This document shows, piece after piece, positions 30,958-51,741 of a stretch of DNA of 64,000 bases. How positions within the stretch are numbered: the first letter of the stretch is position 1; every line of letters begins with the position of its first letter. Both the position numbers and the translations under genes were made by a program. This stretch comes from Paenibacillus sp. (GTDB lineage: Bacteria > Bacillota > Bacilli > Paenibacillales > YIM-B00363), in the NCBI RefSeq assembly GCF_035645195.1, contig NZ_DASQNA010000018.1, forward strand, positions 62,001 to 126,000, given 5' to 3'. The notes beneath the pieces were generated by a model. The model was not told the DNA's origin, did not search any database, and worked only from the letters and a program-made list of their open reading frames with translations.

Positions 30958-31204
30958 GACGGAATCGATACAATTCGAAGAAGCGATGGAGAAGCTCGAG
31001 GTGATCGTCGCGAAGCTCGAAAGCGGCGACGTGCCGCTCGAGCAGGCGATCGAGCTGTTCCAGGAGGGGATGCGGTTATCCCGCATTTGCAGCCAGAAGC
31101 TCGAGAGCGTCGAACGCAAAATCGAGATGCTGCTCGAAGAGGACGGCCAAACCGTGAAGAAACCCTTCACGGCGGCTTTGGAGAAAGGTGACGCCCTTGA
31201 ATAA
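30950..31204 (+). CDS. xseB: Exodeoxyribonuclease VII small subunit
   Basis: 84 residues, helical; the FEEAMEKLEVIVAKLESGDVPLE signature pattern is at residues 8-30 (conserved LE-x-IV-x-LE-x-GD). GTG start overlaps xseA by eight bases and the end overlaps ispA, so the set is tightly coupled. Confidence 0.96.
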   Translation: MTETESIQFEEAMEKLEVIVAKLESGDVPLEQAIELFQEGMRLSRICSQKLESVERKIEMLLEEDGQTVKKPFTAALEKGDALE

Positions 31205-32120
31205 CGCGCATTCCGCGCCGCTCGAGCCGATCGAGCATTTTATATCCGATATCGCCAGCCGCGTCGCGGACGAGCTGACGGTCATCGTCCCCGCGTCGTG
31301 GGACGTGCCGGCGAAGCTGCGCGAGGCGATGGCGTATTCGCTGCTCGCCGGCGGCAAGCGGCTGAGACCGGCGCTCGCGATCGCGGCCGCGGAAGCGGTC
31401 GGCGGCTCGACGGAGCCGGCGTTCCCGGCCGCTTGCGCGGTCGAGCTGATTCATACGTACTCGCTGATTCACGACGATCTGCCGGCGATGGACGACGACG
31501 ACTTCCGCCGGGGCCGCCCGACGAACCACAAGGTGTTCGGCGAGGCGATGGCGATTTTGGCCGGAGACGCGCTGCTGACGCACGCGTTCCACGTGCTCGC
31601 CGCCATACCCGAGAAGCACCCGAGCGTCCCTGCGGCGGCCGCGCTGCGCGTCGTGAAGGAGCTCGCGGCTTACGCGGGCGCGCCGGGCATGGTCGGCGGG
31701 CAAGCGGCCGACATGCTCGGCGAGCAGGGGGCGACGACGCTTAATGAGCTGGAGTATATCCACCTGCACAAGACGAGCGATCTCATCGTCGCGTCGCTGC
31801 GCTCGGGCGCAATCGTCAGCGGCGCGACCGAAGCGCAGCTCGACGCGCTCGCCGTGTTCGGGCGGTCCGTCGGCCTCGCGTTCCAAATCCAAGACGACAT
31901 CCTCGACGTCGTCGGCGATCCGGCGAAGCTCGGCAAAAGCACGAACAGCGATGCCGCGCAGCAGAAGGTAACATATCCGTATTTGATCGGGCTCGACGAG
32001 AGCCGGCGGAAGGTCGCCGAGCTGACCGCGGAGGCGAAAGCGGCGGTCATGAACGGCGAACTGCCGGCGCCGGGGCGGCTCCTGCAGCTCGCCGACTATT
32101 TGCTGTCCAGAGAATACTAA
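31197..32120 (+). CDS. ispA: Farnesyl diphosphate synthase
   Basis: 307-residue trans-prenyltransferase. The first Asp-rich motif (DDLPAMDDDDFRRGR) and the second (QIQDDILD) bind Mg-diphosphate; the residues before the first motif (HTYSLIH) fit a C15 product. TTG 31197 is placed nine bases after GGAGAAAGG; GTG 31188 is an alternative adding three residues. In most Bacilli dxs follows directly; here the OLE RNA and oapA intervene. Confidence 0.94.
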   Translation: MNNAHSAPLEPIEHFISDIASRVADELTVIVPASWDVPAKLREAMAYSLLAGGKRLRPALAIAAAEAVGGSTEPAFPAACAVELIHTYSLIHDDLPAMDDDDFRRGRPTNHKVFGEAMAILAGDALLTHAFHVLAAIPEKHPSVPAAAALRVVKELAAYAGAPGMVGGQAADMLGEQGATTLNELEYIHLHKTSDLIVASLRSGAIVSGATEAQLDALAVFGRSVGLAFQIQDDILDVVGDPAKLGKSTNSDAAQQKVTYPYLIGLDESRRKVAELTAEAKAAVMNGELPAPGRLLQLADYLLSREY

Positions 32121-32132
32121 TAGACGAGCTTT

Positions 32133-32164
32133 ACGCGCTTTCGGCCTTGCCGGAGGCGCGTTTT
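32133..32164 (+). terminator. Intrinsic terminator between ispA and OLE RNA
   Basis: ACGCGC pairs with GCGCGT with an inner CGGC/GCCG helix, followed by TTTT. It separates the folD-ispA transcript from the OLE unit. Confidence 0.72.
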
Positions 32165-32209
32165 CGTTTGCGAGTGCAGGGCGCGGAACGGAACTGAGCG
32201 GCACTTCCA

Positions 32210-32239
32210 TTGAGCCGAGTTTTCGCATTGTGGTATAAT
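32210..32239 (+). promoter_or_regulatory. Promoter of the OLE RNA
   Basis: TTGAGC (32210-32215), 18-bp spacer, perfect TATAAT (32234-32239) in the extended context TGTGGTATAAT. The predicted start at about 32246-32248 coincides with the start of the structured RNA. Confidence 0.72.
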
Positions 32240-32246
32240 AGCGACA

Positions 32247-32900
32247 GGATTCGGAGTGGCGCAGTATTCTAGTCGGCCTACCGCTTTGAGGGCGAGCCTA
32301 AAAATTCGCCGAAGGGCACATCGATGAAGTTCCTGGTGCCGGCTTTCGACGCCCAGTCGGGGGCTGGTGGTGGGAGTTAAGGTTGCAGGGCGATCCGCAA
32401 TGGCATGCGGGCGTTGACCCTGCTTCCGCGGAGGCCCAAGTGCGTGGCGGCGGGCTTGTCGTCTTGCTGACGATCAAGTGACCGGCCATGGCTCGGGGTA
32501 TGAACCTGCTACCGTGCCGGCGTGATTTTGAAGTGATTTATTCGCTTATAAGATTACCGCAGGGTGCGGTGCAGCGTAGCCTGCCTTGAGTGGGCCAGCA
32601 GGGATTATAGATATAGGCGCATTCGGTCCTCGGCCAAGGACGTTTGCCGCCCACGCTATATGAAATCTGGTCTGCAAAAGAGGCTAAGAAGCGGTTCTTG
32701 AGCTGCCCGAGGAAAACTCCTAGACTGTTCATATCCATGAAGCTTCTTGGGGATTATAGTGTGGACTAAGTGGTAATCCAGTCTGACGAGCGGCAACGTC
32801 GTCAAGGCGCTCTTAAAGGGGAACCGCCCAGCCGGCGACGGGGGGTGAGCGCTTGGGAAAACCTACTGGACCTAAGCCACAGCATTTACTCAAGAAGCTG
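32247..32900 (+). ncRNA. ole: OLE RNA (ornate, large, extremophilic RNA)
   Basis: About 650 bp with no credible reading frame but rich in complementary segments (for example GCAGGG near 32386 with CCCTGC near 32417). It lies between ispA and dxs and directly before a four-helix membrane protein of OapA type. That gene neighbourhood and size are the known setting of OLE RNA in Bacillales and Clostridia. Known OLE RNA binds OapA at the membrane and is linked to cold, short-chain alcohol and magnesium tolerance. It has its own promoter. Identity rests on context, size and structure, not a covariance-model match; the 3' end is approximate. Confidence 0.85.
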
Positions 32901-32944
32901 CCACTCCTACATATCCTTAAGAGAGGAAACTAACGCGCAAATTT

Positions 32945-33574
32945 ATGAAACCTATCTGGAAGCACTCCATGCAATGGAGTATTTTTATTTCCATAGTAAC
33001 CTTCGTGCTGGCGAGCGTGTTTTCGGTTGTCTCCACCGCGATGCTACAAGGCGTCGTTTGGGGCGTCGGCGTTCTGGTCGTGATGGTCATCGTGGCGATC
33101 GGCATCTTTTTCGACATGATGGGCATCGCGTCCGCGTCGGCGAACGAGCGTCCGTTCCATGCGATGGCGGCGGAGAAGGTGCCCGGCGCGAAGCAGGCGA
33201 TCGCGATCGTCCGCAACGCGGACCGGTTCTCGAACTTTTGCAACGACGTCGTCGGCGACATCTGCGGCATTATCAGCGGCACGGCTTCGGCGCTCGTCGT
33301 CGTTCTGATGATCGGCGACGCCGGAGAAGGCGAAGGGTTGATGACCGCCGTCGTGACGGTCGTGTTTTCCGCGGTCGTCTCCGCGTTCACGGTCGGCGGC
33401 AAAGCGCTCGGTAAATCGTTCGCGATACACAATTCCATCCCGATCGTGCTTTGGATCGGCAAAGCGTTCTACGTGGTGGAGCATCGGTTTGGCATCCGCG
33501 TGTTAGGCGGCAGAAAGAAAACCAACGGAAAGCGGGGGAGCAAACGTGCTGCTCGATCGGATTCATCAGCCTAG
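32945..33574 (+). CDS. oapA: OLE-associated membrane protein OapA
   Basis: 209 residues with four predicted membrane helices (about 9-34, 36-58, 105-125, 130-152) and a highly basic C-terminal tail ([17 protein letters not shown]) that could contact RNA. Conserved-looking loop [20 protein letters not shown] follows helix 2. OapA is the membrane protein that binds and localises OLE RNA, and the two genes nearly always adjoin. The nearest purine-rich site (AGAGAGGA) is 16 bases before ATG 32945, unusually far, so the start or its control is uncertain. It overlaps dxs by 29 bp. Confidence 0.87.
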
Positions 33575-35459
33575 CGATCTGAAGTCGCTCGATGTCGCCC
33601 AGCTGGAGCAGCTGGCCCAAGAAATTCGGGAGTTCCTGATTACGACGCTGTCCTCGACGGGCGGACATCTCGCGCCGAACCTCGGCGTCGTGGAGCTCAC
33701 GCTCGCGCTGCACTACTTGTTCGACAGCCCGAAGGACAAATTGATTTTCGACGTAGGCCACCAAGCCTACGTACATAAGCTGCTTACGGGTCGGAAAGAT
33801 CGCTTCCCGACGCTGCGCAAATACAAAGGCCTCTGCGGCTTCGTGAAGCGCTCCGAATCCGAGCACGACGTCTGGGAAGCGGGTCACAGCTCGACGTCGT
33901 TGTCGGCCGCGATGGGCATGGCCGTCGCGCGCGATTTGCAGGGCCAAGATTACAAGGTCATCGCCTTGATCGGCGACGGGGCTCTAACCGGCGGCATGGC
34001 GTTCGAAGCGCTCAACCATATCGGTCACGAGAAGAAAAATTTGACCGTCGTGCTGAACGACAACGAAATGTCGATCGCGCCGAACGTCGGCGCGCTGCAC
34101 AATTACTTGTCCAAGGTACGTACGGACAGAACGTACATAAAAGCGAAAGAAGAAGTCGAAACGCTGCTCAAAAAAGTGCCCGCCATCGGCGGAACGCTCG
34201 CGTCGTGGGCGGAGAAAGTGAAAGACAGCCTCAAATACCTCGTCGTGTCCGGGGTGCTGTTCGAGGAACTCGGCTACACGTATTACGGACCGATCGACGG
34301 GCACAATTTGCCGGTGCTGCTCGAAACGTTCCGCCAAGCGTCCAAGGTGGAAGGCCCGGTGCTCGTGCACGTCGTCACGACCAAAGGCAAAGGCTACGCG
34401 CCGGCGGAGAAGGACTCTCACACGTGGCATGGCCTCGGGGCGTATAAAATCGAATCGGGCCAAGTGCTGAAATCGGCCGGCCCTCCGATGTACACGGAAG
34501 TGTTCGGCAAGACGCTCATCGAGCTCGCGGAGCGCGACGACCGGATCGTCGCCGTCACGCCGGCGATGCCGGGCGGCTCGGGGCTGCTCAAATTCGCCGA
34601 CCGGTTCCCGAACCGGATGATCGACGTCGGCATCGCCGAGCAGCACGCCGCTACGCTGTGCGCCGCCATCGCGATAGAAGGCATGAAGCCGGTGTTCGCC
34701 GTGTACTCCACCTTCCTGCAGCGCGCCTACGACCAGGTCGTGCACGACATTTGCCGGCAAAATTTGAACGTCGTCTTCGCCATCGACCGAGCCGGCTTCG
34801 TCGGTCCCGACGGAGAAACCCATCATGGCGTATACGACATCGCGTACCTGAGGCACGTGCCGAACATGGCGATTCTGATGCCGAAGGACGAGAACGAGCT
34901 GCGACATATGCTGCACACGGCGATTCAATACGACGGCGGCCCGATCGCCGTCCGCTACCCGCGGATCCAAGGCACGGGCGTCGACTGGAACGACGAGCTG
35001 AAGCTCATCCCGTTCGGCGAATGGGAGACGGTGCGCGACGGCCGCGACGCGGTCGCCCTCGCCGTCGGTCCGATGGTGCAGGTCGCGTTAGACGCGGCGG
35101 AGAAGCTGGCTTCGCAAGGCGTATCGCTGCGGGTCGTCAACGCGCGCTTCCTGAAGCCGCTCGACGGCGCGATGCTGTCGGCGCTCGCGGAAGAACGTCT
35201 GCCGATCGTGACGATCGAAGAAGGCGCCGCGGCCGGCGGCTTCGGCAGCGCGGTGCTCGAATGGTTCGCCGCGGAAGGCGCGTACGGCGTGCCGATCAAA
35301 GTCATGGGCGTGCCGGACCGGTTCGTGGAGCACGGCTCGATTCAAGAGCAGCGCGACGAAGTGGGCCTTACGGCGGAAGAGCTCGCGGAGACGGTGAAAC
35401 GGCTGCGCCCGAAGGCGGCCGCCGCCGAGAAGCCGCTCATGACGGGCACGAATATGTAA
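33546..35459 (+). CDS. dxs: 1-deoxy-D-xylulose-5-phosphate synthase
   Basis: 637-residue thiamine-diphosphate enzyme, first step of the MEP isoprenoid pathway. TPP/Mg motif [15 protein letters not shown] begins near residue 143; the [15 protein letters not shown] segment forms part of the active site. GTG 33546, inside the end of oapA, follows GGGGGAGC. The gene is translationally coupled to oapA. Confidence 0.96.
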
Positions 35460-41602: not shown

Positions 41603-42658
41603 TTACCTCCCGGGGGCTTGTCGGTTCGAACCGTTCTTTCTTCGGCGGATGATGAAGACTAGCGCGATAATGAGAACGATCGAAGCGGCGACGACGCCGG
41701 CAATCTTCAAGGCATCGGACTTCGTAATAATGATGGCCTCTTCCGAGAACGTCTCGCCGGTTTGTTGGTAATGGGTCGCTTCTGCGCGAGACACGCTCAC
41801 ACCCGTAAGGTTGTAGGCGAACGTTGTGCTTTCCGTCACCCCGGCGTACTCCCATGTCACTTCCGCCGTGTATTCTCCCGCTTTCTTCAGCGCGTTCGGC
41901 AGCTGTTGGAGGTTGTAGATGCCAACCTTCCCCGGGTAAATCGAGCCCATTTCGGCTTTTTCTGTATGCAGCAACGTTCCGTCTCGATAAATCCGAATTT
42001 CGCCCTTCAATCGTTCCACTTTATTTCCGTCATTGCGAATGGAAAGCGCCAATCCCAAGTTTGCGCCGTCCCATTGCGTTTCCATAGAAGCGAGCGTCAG
42101 CTTGTGCGTCTCCGCGCCCGGCACCGTGACCAGCACGCCGATCGCCTGCGCATAAGCTTTATTGATCGTTACCGATGTGCCGTCTTCGATCTCTTGCCGT
42201 TCTTGTTCCTTCAACAGGTGACGAAGGGTGAGAACCGCGACGTGGTCGCCCGGAGCGGCATCTTTCGGGATGGTAAGTTGAAGCGTAACGTCTTTTTTCT
42301 CGCCGGCACGCAGATGGATTTCTTGTTCCGGAACAAGGAACCAGGACCCGATTCCGCCGCGCTGGATATGTTCCGGATCGACCGCGCCCATGCCGCCGCC
42401 GATGGCGACCGGCGCATCGGAGACATACAAGAAACCGTTGGCGATGTGGGCGCCAGACGTATTCCGCGTTCCCAACTCGAAGGTAATGATTTCGCCGGGC
42501 TTCCCGATGAAGGAGTAATAACCGGCAACGACTTGATCCCCTTTGGCTTGAATGGCGACGATCCCTTCTTCGGCATCAGCCGCCGAAACCCGCGGTTCCA
42601 TTCCGTATATCGTCAACAGCATAGCGGCCATAATGATCCCAAAGCATTTTGCGATCAT
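41603..42658 (-). CDS. DUF916-like (WxL-associated) membrane-anchored surface protein
   Basis: 351 residues: signal peptide (1-26), an immunoglobulin-like N-terminal domain (about 30-160; PGEIITFELGTRNTSG, AGEKKDVTLQLTIPKDAAPGDH), a second beta domain (about 175-285), and a C-terminal membrane helix (about 316-338) with basic stop-transfer RRRKNGSNR. This layout is that of the DUF916/DUF3324 proteins that hold WxL proteins at peptidoglycan. ATG 42658 follows GGAAGGGGG. It lies 63 bp downstream of the WxL-type gene, past an intercistronic terminator. Confidence 0.82.
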   Translation of the reverse strand: MIAKCFGIIMAAMLLTIYGMEPRVSAADAEEGIVAIQAKGDQVVAGYYSFIGKPGEIITFELGTRNTSGAHIANGFLYVSDAPVAIGGGMGAVDPEHIQRGGIGSWFLVPEQEIHLRAGEKKDVTLQLTIPKDAAPGDHVAVLTLRHLLKEQERQEIEDGTSVTINKAYAQAIGVLVTVPGAETHKLTLASMETQWDGANLGLALSIRNDGNKVERLKGEIRIYRDGTLLHTEKAEMGSIYPGKVGIYNLQQLPNALKKAGEYTAEVTWEYAGVTESTTFAYNLTGVSVSRAEATHYQQTGETFSEEAIIITKSDALKIAGVVAASIVLIIALVFIIRRRKNGSNRQAPGR

Positions 42659-42721: not shown

Positions 42722-43459
42722 TTACGGCCCCGTTGCAACGGTGTAGGTTACCGTTGTGCTGTACGAACCTTCGAACAAACCGACTTGAGCAGGACGGTTC
42801 GAATTGGTTGCCTCATATTGAGAGCCCGCAGCGATATCGGAGAGTTGAGCAATCGAAATATATTGTGGAAGCTTCAAAGTGTAACGAAAACGTTGCGTAT
42901 AGGCGCCTTGACCGAACATGACGTCCGCGTCCATGATGCGCACGCCGGAAGTCGTGACTTGACCGCTGTAAGCGGAGACGTTCGTCGTGTCCGACGAGTT
43001 CACGCCTGTCAGCGTGCCGTCCTGTACGACCTGAAGAATCGGCGTATTCGTATTATGAATAGGGTCCGGATTTGTGCTGTCCACCGGAAGATTTACCTTG
43101 AAGGTAGCCCCGTTCAAGGAAGGATCGTTCACGGTAGCGCGCAAGTCGGATGCCGAGACCGTGACTTTCCAACCGGCGCCTTGCCCCGTGTTGTCGTCGA
43201 CCCGCACATAATCGTTGGCCGTAATGGCCGGCACGGCCGACCCCATGTCGATCAAGTACGAACCGAGCGACATTTGCGAAGTCGATTGTATCGTCGTAGG
43301 GGTTGTTGCCGGCGCTTGGTTCGGGTCCGAGGACACGTATACGTTGTCCGCCCCGTTAACGGCGGTGCCCGATGCCGCAGCGGTCGGTGTTCCAATGCTT
43401 GCGACGGATGCCGCGATCGCGGCGATCGCCGCGATAGTACGAAATTGCTTCTTCATCAT
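42722..43459 (-). CDS. WxL-type secreted surface protein
   Basis: 245 residues: signal peptide (about 1-29, ending near TAAAS), then a secreted all-beta domain rich in Thr, Ser, Asn and Gly. The segment NTGQGAGWKVTVSASDLRA fits the Trp-rich motif of WxL domains, which bind peptidoglycan non-covalently; it ends with a typical threonine-rich strand (STTVTYTVATGP). ATG 43459 follows GGAGGG. GC content is lower than the neighbours. The gene is downstream of a c-di-GMP-I riboswitch. Assignment to the WxL family is by pattern and partner gene. Confidence 0.75.
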   Translation of the reverse strand: MMKKQFRTIAAIAAIAASVASIGTPTAAASGTAVNGADNVYVSSDPNQAPATTPTTIQSTSQMSLGSYLIDMGSAVPAITANDYVRVDDNTGQGAGWKVTVSASDLRATVNDPSLNGATFKVNLPVDSTNPDPIHNTNTPILQVVQDGTLTGVNSSDTTNVSAYSGQVTTSGVRIMDADVMFGQGAYTQRFRYTLKLPQYISIAQLSDIAAGSQYEATNSNRPAQVGLFEGSYSTTVTYTVATGP

Positions 43460-43479
43460 ATGACCCTCCATTTTGGCAT

Positions 43480-43508
43480 AAAAAAATCCATCTGCCGAGG
43501 GGGATGGA
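43480..43508 (-). terminator. Riboswitch expression-platform terminator
   Basis: On the minus strand TCCATC pairs with GATGGA over a ten-base loop, followed by seven T. The word CCATCC in its 5' arm can instead pair with GGATGG at 43524-43529, giving an antiterminator. Confidence 0.82.
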
Positions 43509-43539
43509 AGTCGTGCTTGTATGTCCATCCTTCCAGCGG

Positions 43540-43620
43540 CCTGGCGATCGTGGCAGCATGGCTGCGTTAGACCCACGGCTTTGCGTCCCCGCGTTTCCGC
43601 GGGTTTGCCTTTGTTACAGG
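43540..43620 (-). promoter_or_regulatory. Cyclic di-GMP-I riboswitch (GEMM-I) aptamer
   Basis: Reading the minus strand, the core GGCAAACC - GCGGAAACGC stem-loop - GGGACGCAAAGCC is the GEMM-I consensus with its GNRA tetraloop, then a second arm (GTGGGTCTAACGC...GCTGCCACGATCGC). Closing stem P1 is CCTG (43617-43620) with CAGG (43540-43543). A terminator with an exclusive antiterminator follows, then the WxL-type gene. Sign of control by c-di-GMP cannot be read reliably. Confidence 0.93.
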
Positions 43621-43857
43621 ATTCAGTTTTCGTCGGAAAGCGGATCGCGATCACGTCTTACCTTACTGAGTATATTCGAATTTGCATCAAAAGCAATACT
43701 CCAAGTATAGACAACATGATAGATTCGATGAATCGTTTCCAATACGAAGAAGTCTCGGTTTCCGGTTCTGGGACGAGCTGCATGCGAAGTACGCGTTTTG
43801 CGTACAATAATTGCTACGCAATCGTACGCGAAGAGCGTACCTCCGAGGGGTGTAGCG
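43621..43857. promoter_or_regulatory. Divergent intergenic region between riboswitch and ger operon
   Basis: 237 bp. It must hold the minus-strand promoter of the riboswitch transcript and the plus-strand promoter of the ger genes; neither was identified with confidence. A GTACGC-gtttt-GCGTAC hairpin lies at 43789-43805, 53 bp before the gerA-type start. Confidence 0.4.
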
Positions 43858-51252: not shown

Positions 51253-51741
51253 ACCGGCGGCGCGGCGCGCCCGAACGGCCGCCGCGCGCTTCGCCACCGG
51301 GGCGAGCAGCCACTGCGGCTTCAGATGCTCCGGGAGGTCGTCCCGAACGTATTTGCGAATGTCTTCCCCCAAATATTTGCGCATGCGCACCTCGGTCTCG
51401 GCTTTGGCGAAATGCCACAGCATCTCGAAGCTGGCCTTGTAGCCGCGGCACCAGTAGACGCAGCCGACGCCTTCCTCGTCCCGCCGCTCGTCGGTCACCT
51501 TGATGCCCTTCGTCCGCAGCCGGTGGCGGAGCTTCGCCAAATCGGCGGCGACGTCGTCCATCGCCCGCTGCAGCAGGTCGAGGTACGGCTGCTTCGTCTT
51601 CAGCTTGCTTTCCCGCAGCACCTTGGCGTCCCGGTCGAACACCGTCATCAGCAGGTTCAAAATCAACGTTTCTTTGATCGTGCCGAGCTCGTCGACGGCG
51701 GTGACCGGCGGGATGGTCGGGATCCGTTCTTGCTTCGCCAT
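51112..51741 (-). CDS. Hypothetical cytoplasmic protein
   Basis: 209 residues, helical and charged, no recognised domain. The first 150 residues look like an ordered protein (AVDELGTIKETLILNLLMTVFDRDAK; GCVYWCRGYKASFEMLWHFAKAETE). The last 45 or so, rich in Arg, Ala, Gly and Glu, are antisense to the small membrane protein gene on the other strand and may be an unselected extension. ATG 51741 is chosen over 51756. Confidence 0.6.
   Translation of the reverse strand: MAKQERIPTIPPVTAVDELGTIKETLILNLLMTVFDRDAKVLRESKLKTKQPYLDLLQRAMDDVAADLAKLRHRLRTKGIKVTDERRDEEGVGCVYWCRGYKASFEMLWHFAKAETEVRMRKYLGEDIRKYVRDDLPEHLKPQWLLAPVAKRAAAVRARRAAGSLGAGAAPREQLHGGEHARPDERGRQREEKPVPVAESEIEQPVRGE

Follow-up and report, generated by a model that had tools for sequence, protein, structure and literature searches.

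A Terminator-like Hairpin within oapA Suggests That OLE RNA May Be the Leader of the oapA Transcript in Bacilli

Introduction

We identified a terminator-like hairpin hidden within the first codons of oapA, the partner gene of OLE RNA, in a 64,000-nucleotide stretch of a Paenibacillus sp. genome (hereafter the window). With a probability of roughly 0.6, we propose that OLE is the leader of the oapA(-dxs) transcript, in which this hairpin leads either to OLE release or to read-through to OapA. A more far-reaching version, whose odds we put at about even, holds that OLE is made in Bacilli by a termination decision inside the oapA frame. A hairpin kept on synonymous bases, with different sequences in two lineages, would split free OLE from OapA message, and oapA translation or OLE folding could set the RNA:protein ratio. 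The hairpin and the leader-like arrangement go beyond the initial annotation of the window, which had proposed the OLE locus itself.

A Full-Length OLE RNA between ispA and dxs

The proposed locus, a noncoding, structure-rich segment of about 700 bp lying between ispA and dxs, was borne out when we ran the Rfam model as the initial annotation had suggested. Coordinates below refer to the forward strand of the window unless stated otherwise. A covariance search with RF01071 gave a match at 32240–32920 (489.1 bits, gathering score 50, E = 1.8e-140) whose alignment spans positions 1–616 of the 616-position model, and a single OLE copy was found in the source genome. Upstream lies ispA (farnesyl diphosphate synthase, 31188–32120) and downstream dxs, from 33546, in the order described before. 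The RNA belongs to the full-length OLE class and not to the published variants, in which P7–P9 are short or missing (PMC11332333; cited, like the other papers here, from excerpts): the whole model is aligned, and the window OLE differs from it by longer distal ends of two variable stems. One distal end (32451–32482) has 32 nt compared to 13 in the model, and that of the next stem (32519–32562) has 44 nt compared to 4. Going by published diagrams, we take these stems to be, likely, P7 and P8, respectively.

An A-rich segment, CCUAAAAAU, and a palindromic GGCC loop are both present in the window's RF01071 alignment and appear to correspond to L4 and L9.3, the dimer contacts of the published OLE structure (PMC12286853). 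With the OLE of H. halodurans, the RF01071 model system, the locus shares the full-length match, its own promoter, and oapA in tandem. The locus is a canonical, complete, and ordinary member of the known OLE class, with its partner gene oapA, and by analogy to other carriers OLE and OapA presumably form a membrane ribonucleoprotein for stress adaptation here as well. It has also been speculated of OLE generally that the RNA is a catalyst or transporter, an activity that would be invisible in sequence. Its size and conservation, together with published arguments (PMC11332333, PMC12265935), favor this idea, on which our data have no bearing and which does not compete with the hairpin proposal; we regard it as rather unlikely.

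The initial annotation had named a conserved coding frame across homologous intervals as telling against OLE. In relatives, the matches conform to the structure model of OLE, mostly over its full length, and look unlike a coding frame; on the recurrence of such matches we provisionally set aside a coding reading of the interval. ORF 32770–33414, which overlaps OLE and oapA in a different frame, is taken as a chance frame.

Besides OLE, the window contains one Rfam match at gathering score, a c-di-GMP-I riboswitch (68.4 bits, 43531–43618, reverse strand). It covers the 5′ part of ORF 42722–43654 as called, for a WxL cell-wall surface protein, whose true start is probably behind the riboswitch. 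The next gene (41603–42658) resembles that for a WxL-interacting protein, with matches below cut-off.

OapA, a CNNM-like Membrane Protein

A gap of 24 nt separates OLE from oapA (32945–33574), which encodes a CNNM-like membrane protein of 209 aa with the hallmark DVVGD at residues 101–105. Four long helices are predicted (residues 3–34, 39–65, 92–125, and 131–162; model pLDDT 74.7, pTM 0.61), in agreement with the four-helix membrane protein described initially, and.D...D of the DxxxD hallmark is kept in 108 of 109 aligned OapA proteins. Identity is 69–83% to same-genus OapA (69% to Paenibacillus alkalitolerans, the closest named species identified, and 81–83% to two Paenibacillus sp. bins) and 47–64% to more distant ones.

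The Pfam CNNM match scores 23.8 bits, below the cut-off of 28.4. Pfam detected no CBS or CorC_HlyC domain in the protein, an NCBIfam search returned no match at E 0.001, and neither did a sequence-profile search against solved structures return any. The best solved-structure matches of the OapA model are MtCorB (7m1t, Z 11.6, rmsd 2.5, 129 residues) and then CorC (7cff, Z 10.0, rmsd 3.1, 124 residues), followed by an unrelated entry at Z 8.0. For helical bundles, according to the tool, a Z below about 13 can reflect a common arrangement. Foldseek (best E 0.021) pointed to the same CorB/CorC family. OapA thus shares with the MpfA/CorC/CNNM magnesium transporters a weak CNNM match and these two fold matches; the relation of OapA to CNNM proteins has already been published, and the CorB monomer is reported to have three helices (PMC11332333), whereas the window OapA model has four long ones.

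The protein shares DxxxD, the four long helices, and the CNNM-like fold with known OapA and differs in its C-terminal end, which is encoded across the dxs ribosome-binding site and start. The ribosome-binding site, GGAAAGCGGGGGA (33527–33539), read from the sequence, lies inside oapA, and a similar block is also found upstream of dxs in OLE-less relatives. From its GTG start at 33546, dxs (33546–35459, from the ORF list and profile matches) overlaps the last 29 bases of oapA (33546–33574). The very basic tail noted by the initial annotation is there, with 9 K/R among the last 28 residues, but its last part is constrained by dxs as well, given the overlap and several tail codons that are nearly fixed in the order. 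The basic tail is not merely a by-product of this overlap, because the Bacillaceae-type proteins L074, L080, L102, L107, and L113 also have K/R-rich C-termini while their dxs begins after oapA. (Bacillaceae-type is a label from record titles that covers L068–L144 without L078; one title, that of L116, is Roseburia.)

Distribution of OLE, OapA, and Associated Genes

OLE was found in seven of eight genomes of the window's family and OapA in the same seven, with G005, of the same genus, lacking both. Among 296 genomes of the order, 36 contain OLE and 37 have OapA matches at E 0.001, including a weak one inside a 465-aa frame (G054) and two that comprise a C-terminal stretch only (G147 and G079). 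OLE and OapA co-occur in the order with few exceptions. In the phylum sample, OLE is present in 284 of 398 genomes. The source genome also contains a bS21 gene and an OapC-like L7Ae-family gene at the YbxF position. The latter is presumably flanked by rpoC on one side and the S12 and S7 genes on the other, and we take the second L7Ae-family gene of this genome to be in the nusA operon.

OLE carriers tend to have at most one MpfA (PMC11332333). Counter to this tendency, the source genome has three CorC_HlyC matches, counted by that match alone, and among the order's 36 OLE carriers there are 15 with at least three such matches and four with none. G007, a 1.4 Mb genome of the window's family (91% complete), has no CorC_HlyC match; it carries an OLE truncated where its contig stops (389.9 bits) and, terminally on a different contig, OapA (L007 G007:C133; L016 G007:C47).

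Of 62 OLE loci checked, 61 have oapA in tandem behind OLE. All 80 named loci have ispA upstream of oapA and in the same orientation, and the OLE 5′ core motif is present in 71. An Rfam scan of nine loci returned full-length OLE for the seven named ones and reduced OLEs for G079 and G171.

Natural deletions were observed at several loci. In G219 (70% complete), L032 (G219:C84:12595–13262) is a full-length OLE of 519 bits with dxs (G219:C84:10706–12574) about 20 bases later and no oapA between; with no OapA match found in the genome, this is a natural OLE without its partner gene. L147 (G171:C44, OLE part at 51313–51548, minus strand) contains a mini-OLE (174.7 bits, model positions 283–595) that retains the promoter, the 5′ end strand, and an intact domain 2, while domain 1 is gone; its oapA has an intact frame and the hairpin, with a changed DxxxD hallmark (SGVIGD). 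This mini-OLE is unlike both variants described in the excerpts of PMC11332333. L150 (G079:C1, OLE at 118938–119332) is a 395-nt OLE that has lost much of domain 1, and the oapA behind it is broken, with only pieces left, so that RNA and partner decay together in G079. At L149 (G147:C7), only a C-terminal stretch of oapA is left before dxs, overlapping the dxs ribosome-binding site, and an OLE-like promoter is still in place.

A Single Promoter Match Upstream of OLE, oapA, and dxs

A terminator scan identified a terminator-like hairpin behind ispA (32133–32161; 13 pairs, 9 GC), followed by TTTTCGTTTGC. The OLE promoter claimed in the initial annotation was recovered as a consensus match, TTGAGC-18 nt-TATAAT with TG before the −10 (32210–32239), and it is the sole sigma-70-type match on either strand of 31900–33700 (shuffles: mean 0.5). 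Upstream of OLE, TTGAGN-17/18 followed by TATAAT, or by a −10 with a single base changed, is present at 27 of 32 loci of the order. The exact form, TTGAGN-17/18-TATAAT, occurs in the window once on the forward strand, as the OLE promoter, and not on the reverse strand; its background is six occurrences in 526 kb (L065–L144). The promoter probably also serves oapA and dxs, a role that the initial annotation had missed. Given the ispA-distal hairpin and the lack of another promoter match up to dxs, oapA, and probably dxs, would have to be expressed from transcripts extending through both OLE and the hairpin, although consensus matches are no proof. The oapA hairpin element was also considered as a dxs promoter and dropped, since 31900–33700 contains no promoter match but that of OLE.

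Five OLE-less relatives were inspected, and four of them (G005, G147, G020, and G012, but not G009) have TTGAGN-17/18-TATAAT upstream of dxs, 117 to 274 bases before its start. This arrangement lends some weight to an explanation in which the hairpin in oapA is a terminator that solely curbs overexpression of oapA and dxs from a strong OLE promoter, with the mature OLE end unrelated and nothing regulated. The high abundance of OLE RNA in H. halodurans (PMC12054373) is likewise in its favor. Within the downstream stretch covered, dxs was found behind oapA in 48 of the 80 named loci, and the other 32 are without exception Bacillaceae-type. Every one of these retains the hairpin, which argues against its being there for dxs alone. 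We consider the curbing explanation unlikely, if still a serious contender.

The Hairpin in the Window

The hairpin ACTCCAT-GCA-ATGGAGT (32964–32980), supported by folding, alignment, and a pattern search, occupies codons 7–12 of oapA, beginning 19 bases after the A of the ATG, and a T-rich tract read from the sequence, ATTTTTATTT (32981–32990), stands behind it. It thereby combines the stem-loop and T-rich tract of an intrinsic terminator, with a weak stem in the window (7 pairs, 3 GC, about −7 kcal/mol) and stronger stems in Bacillaceae-type genes. Under a fixed terminator definition (stem of at least 6, loop of 3–8, six T in nine, −6 kcal/mol or better), it scores −7.6, a value equalled or bettered by 5 of 1000 codon shuffles. 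The fold lies 2.3 SD below shuffles in a short piece and is indistinct in a longer one. The region 31900–33700 contains six terminator-like matches compared to 2.1 expected, with two more of them inside oapA (33004–33019 and 33347–33360).

Conservation of the Hairpin beyond the Protein Sequence

Alignment of oapA starts revealed bases conserved beyond the protein. For codon analysis we tried 111 loci and obtained an OapA match for 110 and a usable frame for 109 (L032 and L028 are missing); L065–L067, copies of L006, L004, and L005, were left out. L078 was counted in the window's order (33 genes), and the 76 Bacillaceae-type entries are genes, not species, as some species recur. The hairpin has the form ACTCCAT-nnn-ATGGAGT followed by ATTTTTAT in the window's order. 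In Bacillaceae-type genes it lies about 27 bases deeper in oapA and reads GCCGTTATCAC-nnnn-GTGTTAGCGGC, with TATTTTTTC behind it.

Codon bias, recent common ancestry, or protein constraint might by themselves produce such conservation. The encoded residues are well conserved in Bacillaceae-type genomes, and in the window's order the excess of third-base identity is modest (59.5% in hairpin columns versus 40.2%). However, third-base identity of synonymous pairs in the Bacillaceae-type genes is 89.3% in hairpin columns 18–28 and 43.6% in columns 32–190, which are thus free at third positions; it rises to 97.1% without the loop and one tolerant column. Synonymous shuffles, moreover, seldom yield such a hairpin: only 133 of 3800 Bacillaceae-type and 42 of 1650 order shuffles passed the fixed definition. 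A matching element in G012, a genome without oapA, is a further point against these explanations, and we find it highly improbable that they suffice.

In Bacillaceae-type genes, normalized codon entropy is 0–0.2 at columns 18–20, 23, and 25–28, compared to a median of 0.85 over 95 conserved columns; loop column 21 is free (0.94), and column 24 is somewhat variable (0.36). Outside the hairpin, low entropy was observed at one serine column, 113 (0.14). Among the conserved-residue hairpin codons of the order, two serines alone stand out (0.46 and 0.24).

Of the 76 Bacillaceae-type genes, 74 have an element fitting the fixed definition within the opening 115 nt of oapA, as do 19 of the order's 33; among other 115-nt pieces of the same genes, the counts are 10 of 291 and 5 of 131, respectively. 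All 50 of a gene's own codon shuffles were beaten by 41 of the 76 and 12 of the 33 genes, and the L068 hairpin lies 4.9 SD below shuffles. The 14 genes of the order that fail include L005, from P. alkalitolerans. Across the order's 33 genes, 207 of 231 stem pair cells pair versus 63–120 when one side is slid; in L041, G-C replaces the outer A-T pair of the stem, but no T-tract passes. The Bacillaceae-type stem is frozen, without covariation and with one mismatch included, a hint that a further or another constraint acts on it. For Bacillaceae-type genomes, these comparisons provide good support for selection on the hairpin, and the signal in the window's order is weaker.

An exact search for the order's hairpin, in which no mismatch was allowed and weaker forms went uncounted, gave one match each in 16 of 296 genomes; the reversed pattern gave one match in the same set. 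In 15 of the 16, all of them OLE carriers, the match falls at the beginning of oapA. The 16th, G012, lacks OLE and OapA; here a TTGAGA-18-TATAAT promoter precedes the match, which is about 55 bases ahead of dxs. In our reading, OLE and oapA were lost from the G012 locus and its promoter and hairpin were retained. The G012 hairpin alone folds no better than shuffles, so this match may be a chance similarity, although its position speaks against chance.

Between −20 and +180 of the OLE end, a terminator-like element is present at 22 of 32 loci of the order compared to 59 of 1240 shuffled pieces; at L040, L045, L046, and L048, a hairpin with a T-tract lies between OLE and oapA instead of inside oapA. 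In other classes of the phylum, represented by the 30 best-scoring of 284 genomes, 6 loci have such an element and 24 do not, indicating that the hairpin is not a general OLE feature. It belongs to Bacilli and, within the window's order, has a patchy distribution.

A Model for OLE Release and OapA Read-Through

In the model that we favor, transcription would start at about 32246, judging from the −10 of the 32210–32239 promoter, and OLE would be made first. Polymerase that stops at the hairpin and T-tract (32964–32990) would leave an OLE precursor of about 745 nt, to be trimmed to the end helix, and polymerase that reads through would produce the oapA (and dxs) mRNA. Termination at this site is suggested by the hairpin's form and conservation. 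An initiating ribosome would be close to the 5′ arm of the hairpin, so translation could favor read-through; more generally, translation or OLE folding may tune the balance between the two outcomes. In Bacillus, RNA polymerase outruns ribosomes, and there the hairpin might instead simply be leaky. Pairing of the hairpin with the OLE end helix as an anti-terminator (CACTC is in both) was dropped as a general mechanism; by eye, only about half of the order's genes have this shared motif, and Bacillaceae-type genes do not.

The mature OLE of H. halodurans is about 630 nt, with its own promoter, and is described as “presumably posttranscriptionally processed” (PMC9723947). As this is shorter than the approximately 730–745 nt to the T-tract, trimming of a precursor to mature OLE, or another 3′ end, would be needed, and the published view of an own promoter plus processing can be combined with our termination proposal. 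The same description also favors a different explanation, in which the hairpin is an RNA-processing or RNA–protein site (a nuclease stop, or a site where OapA or another protein feeds back on oapA mRNA) and the OLE 3′ end arises by cleavage of a longer operon RNA. The partial binding sites that OapA has in OLE are palindromic (PMC12265935), as is the oapA hairpin, and the near-invariant Bacillaceae-type stem without covariation would suit a partner that reads sequence. Such a site would not readily account for the T-tract behind the stem in both lineages despite unrelated stem sequences, or for L040, L045, L046, and L048, which have yet another stem and T-tract between the genes. We judge this explanation unlikely and continue to prefer a terminator that releases OLE.

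The proposed arrangement shares with transcription attenuators a promoter, a long structured leader, and a hairpin with a T-tract before or in the first gene. It differs in having as leader an RNA of about 600 nt with a function of its own, and in the placement of the hairpin within a reading frame; ORF-internal 3′ ends have been reported in E. coli (PMC7815308). The excerpts of OLE literature that we searched contain no mention of a terminator or conserved hairpin in oapA; the founding 2006 and 2012 papers and the 2023 review are outside this scope, so an earlier mention is possible. The word “terminator” is absent from PMC12286853, PMC12054373, PMC12265935, PMC9723947, and PMC11332333, and in PMC10898510 its 13 occurrences fall in 11 places, of which ten concern the ykoY Mn riboswitch and one is the title of a reference.

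Conclusions

OLE is among the largest conserved bacterial RNAs of unknown activity, and its 3′ end is put down to presumed processing in the excerpted text of PMC9723947. The conserved hairpin in oapA provides a concrete and inexpensive test of how this end arises, and also of how the RNA:protein ratio is set. The natural deletions in relatives, OLE without oapA and OLE without most of domain 1, are ready-made experiments on the mutual dependence of the parts. Constructs that start or end within oapA may alter OLE itself.
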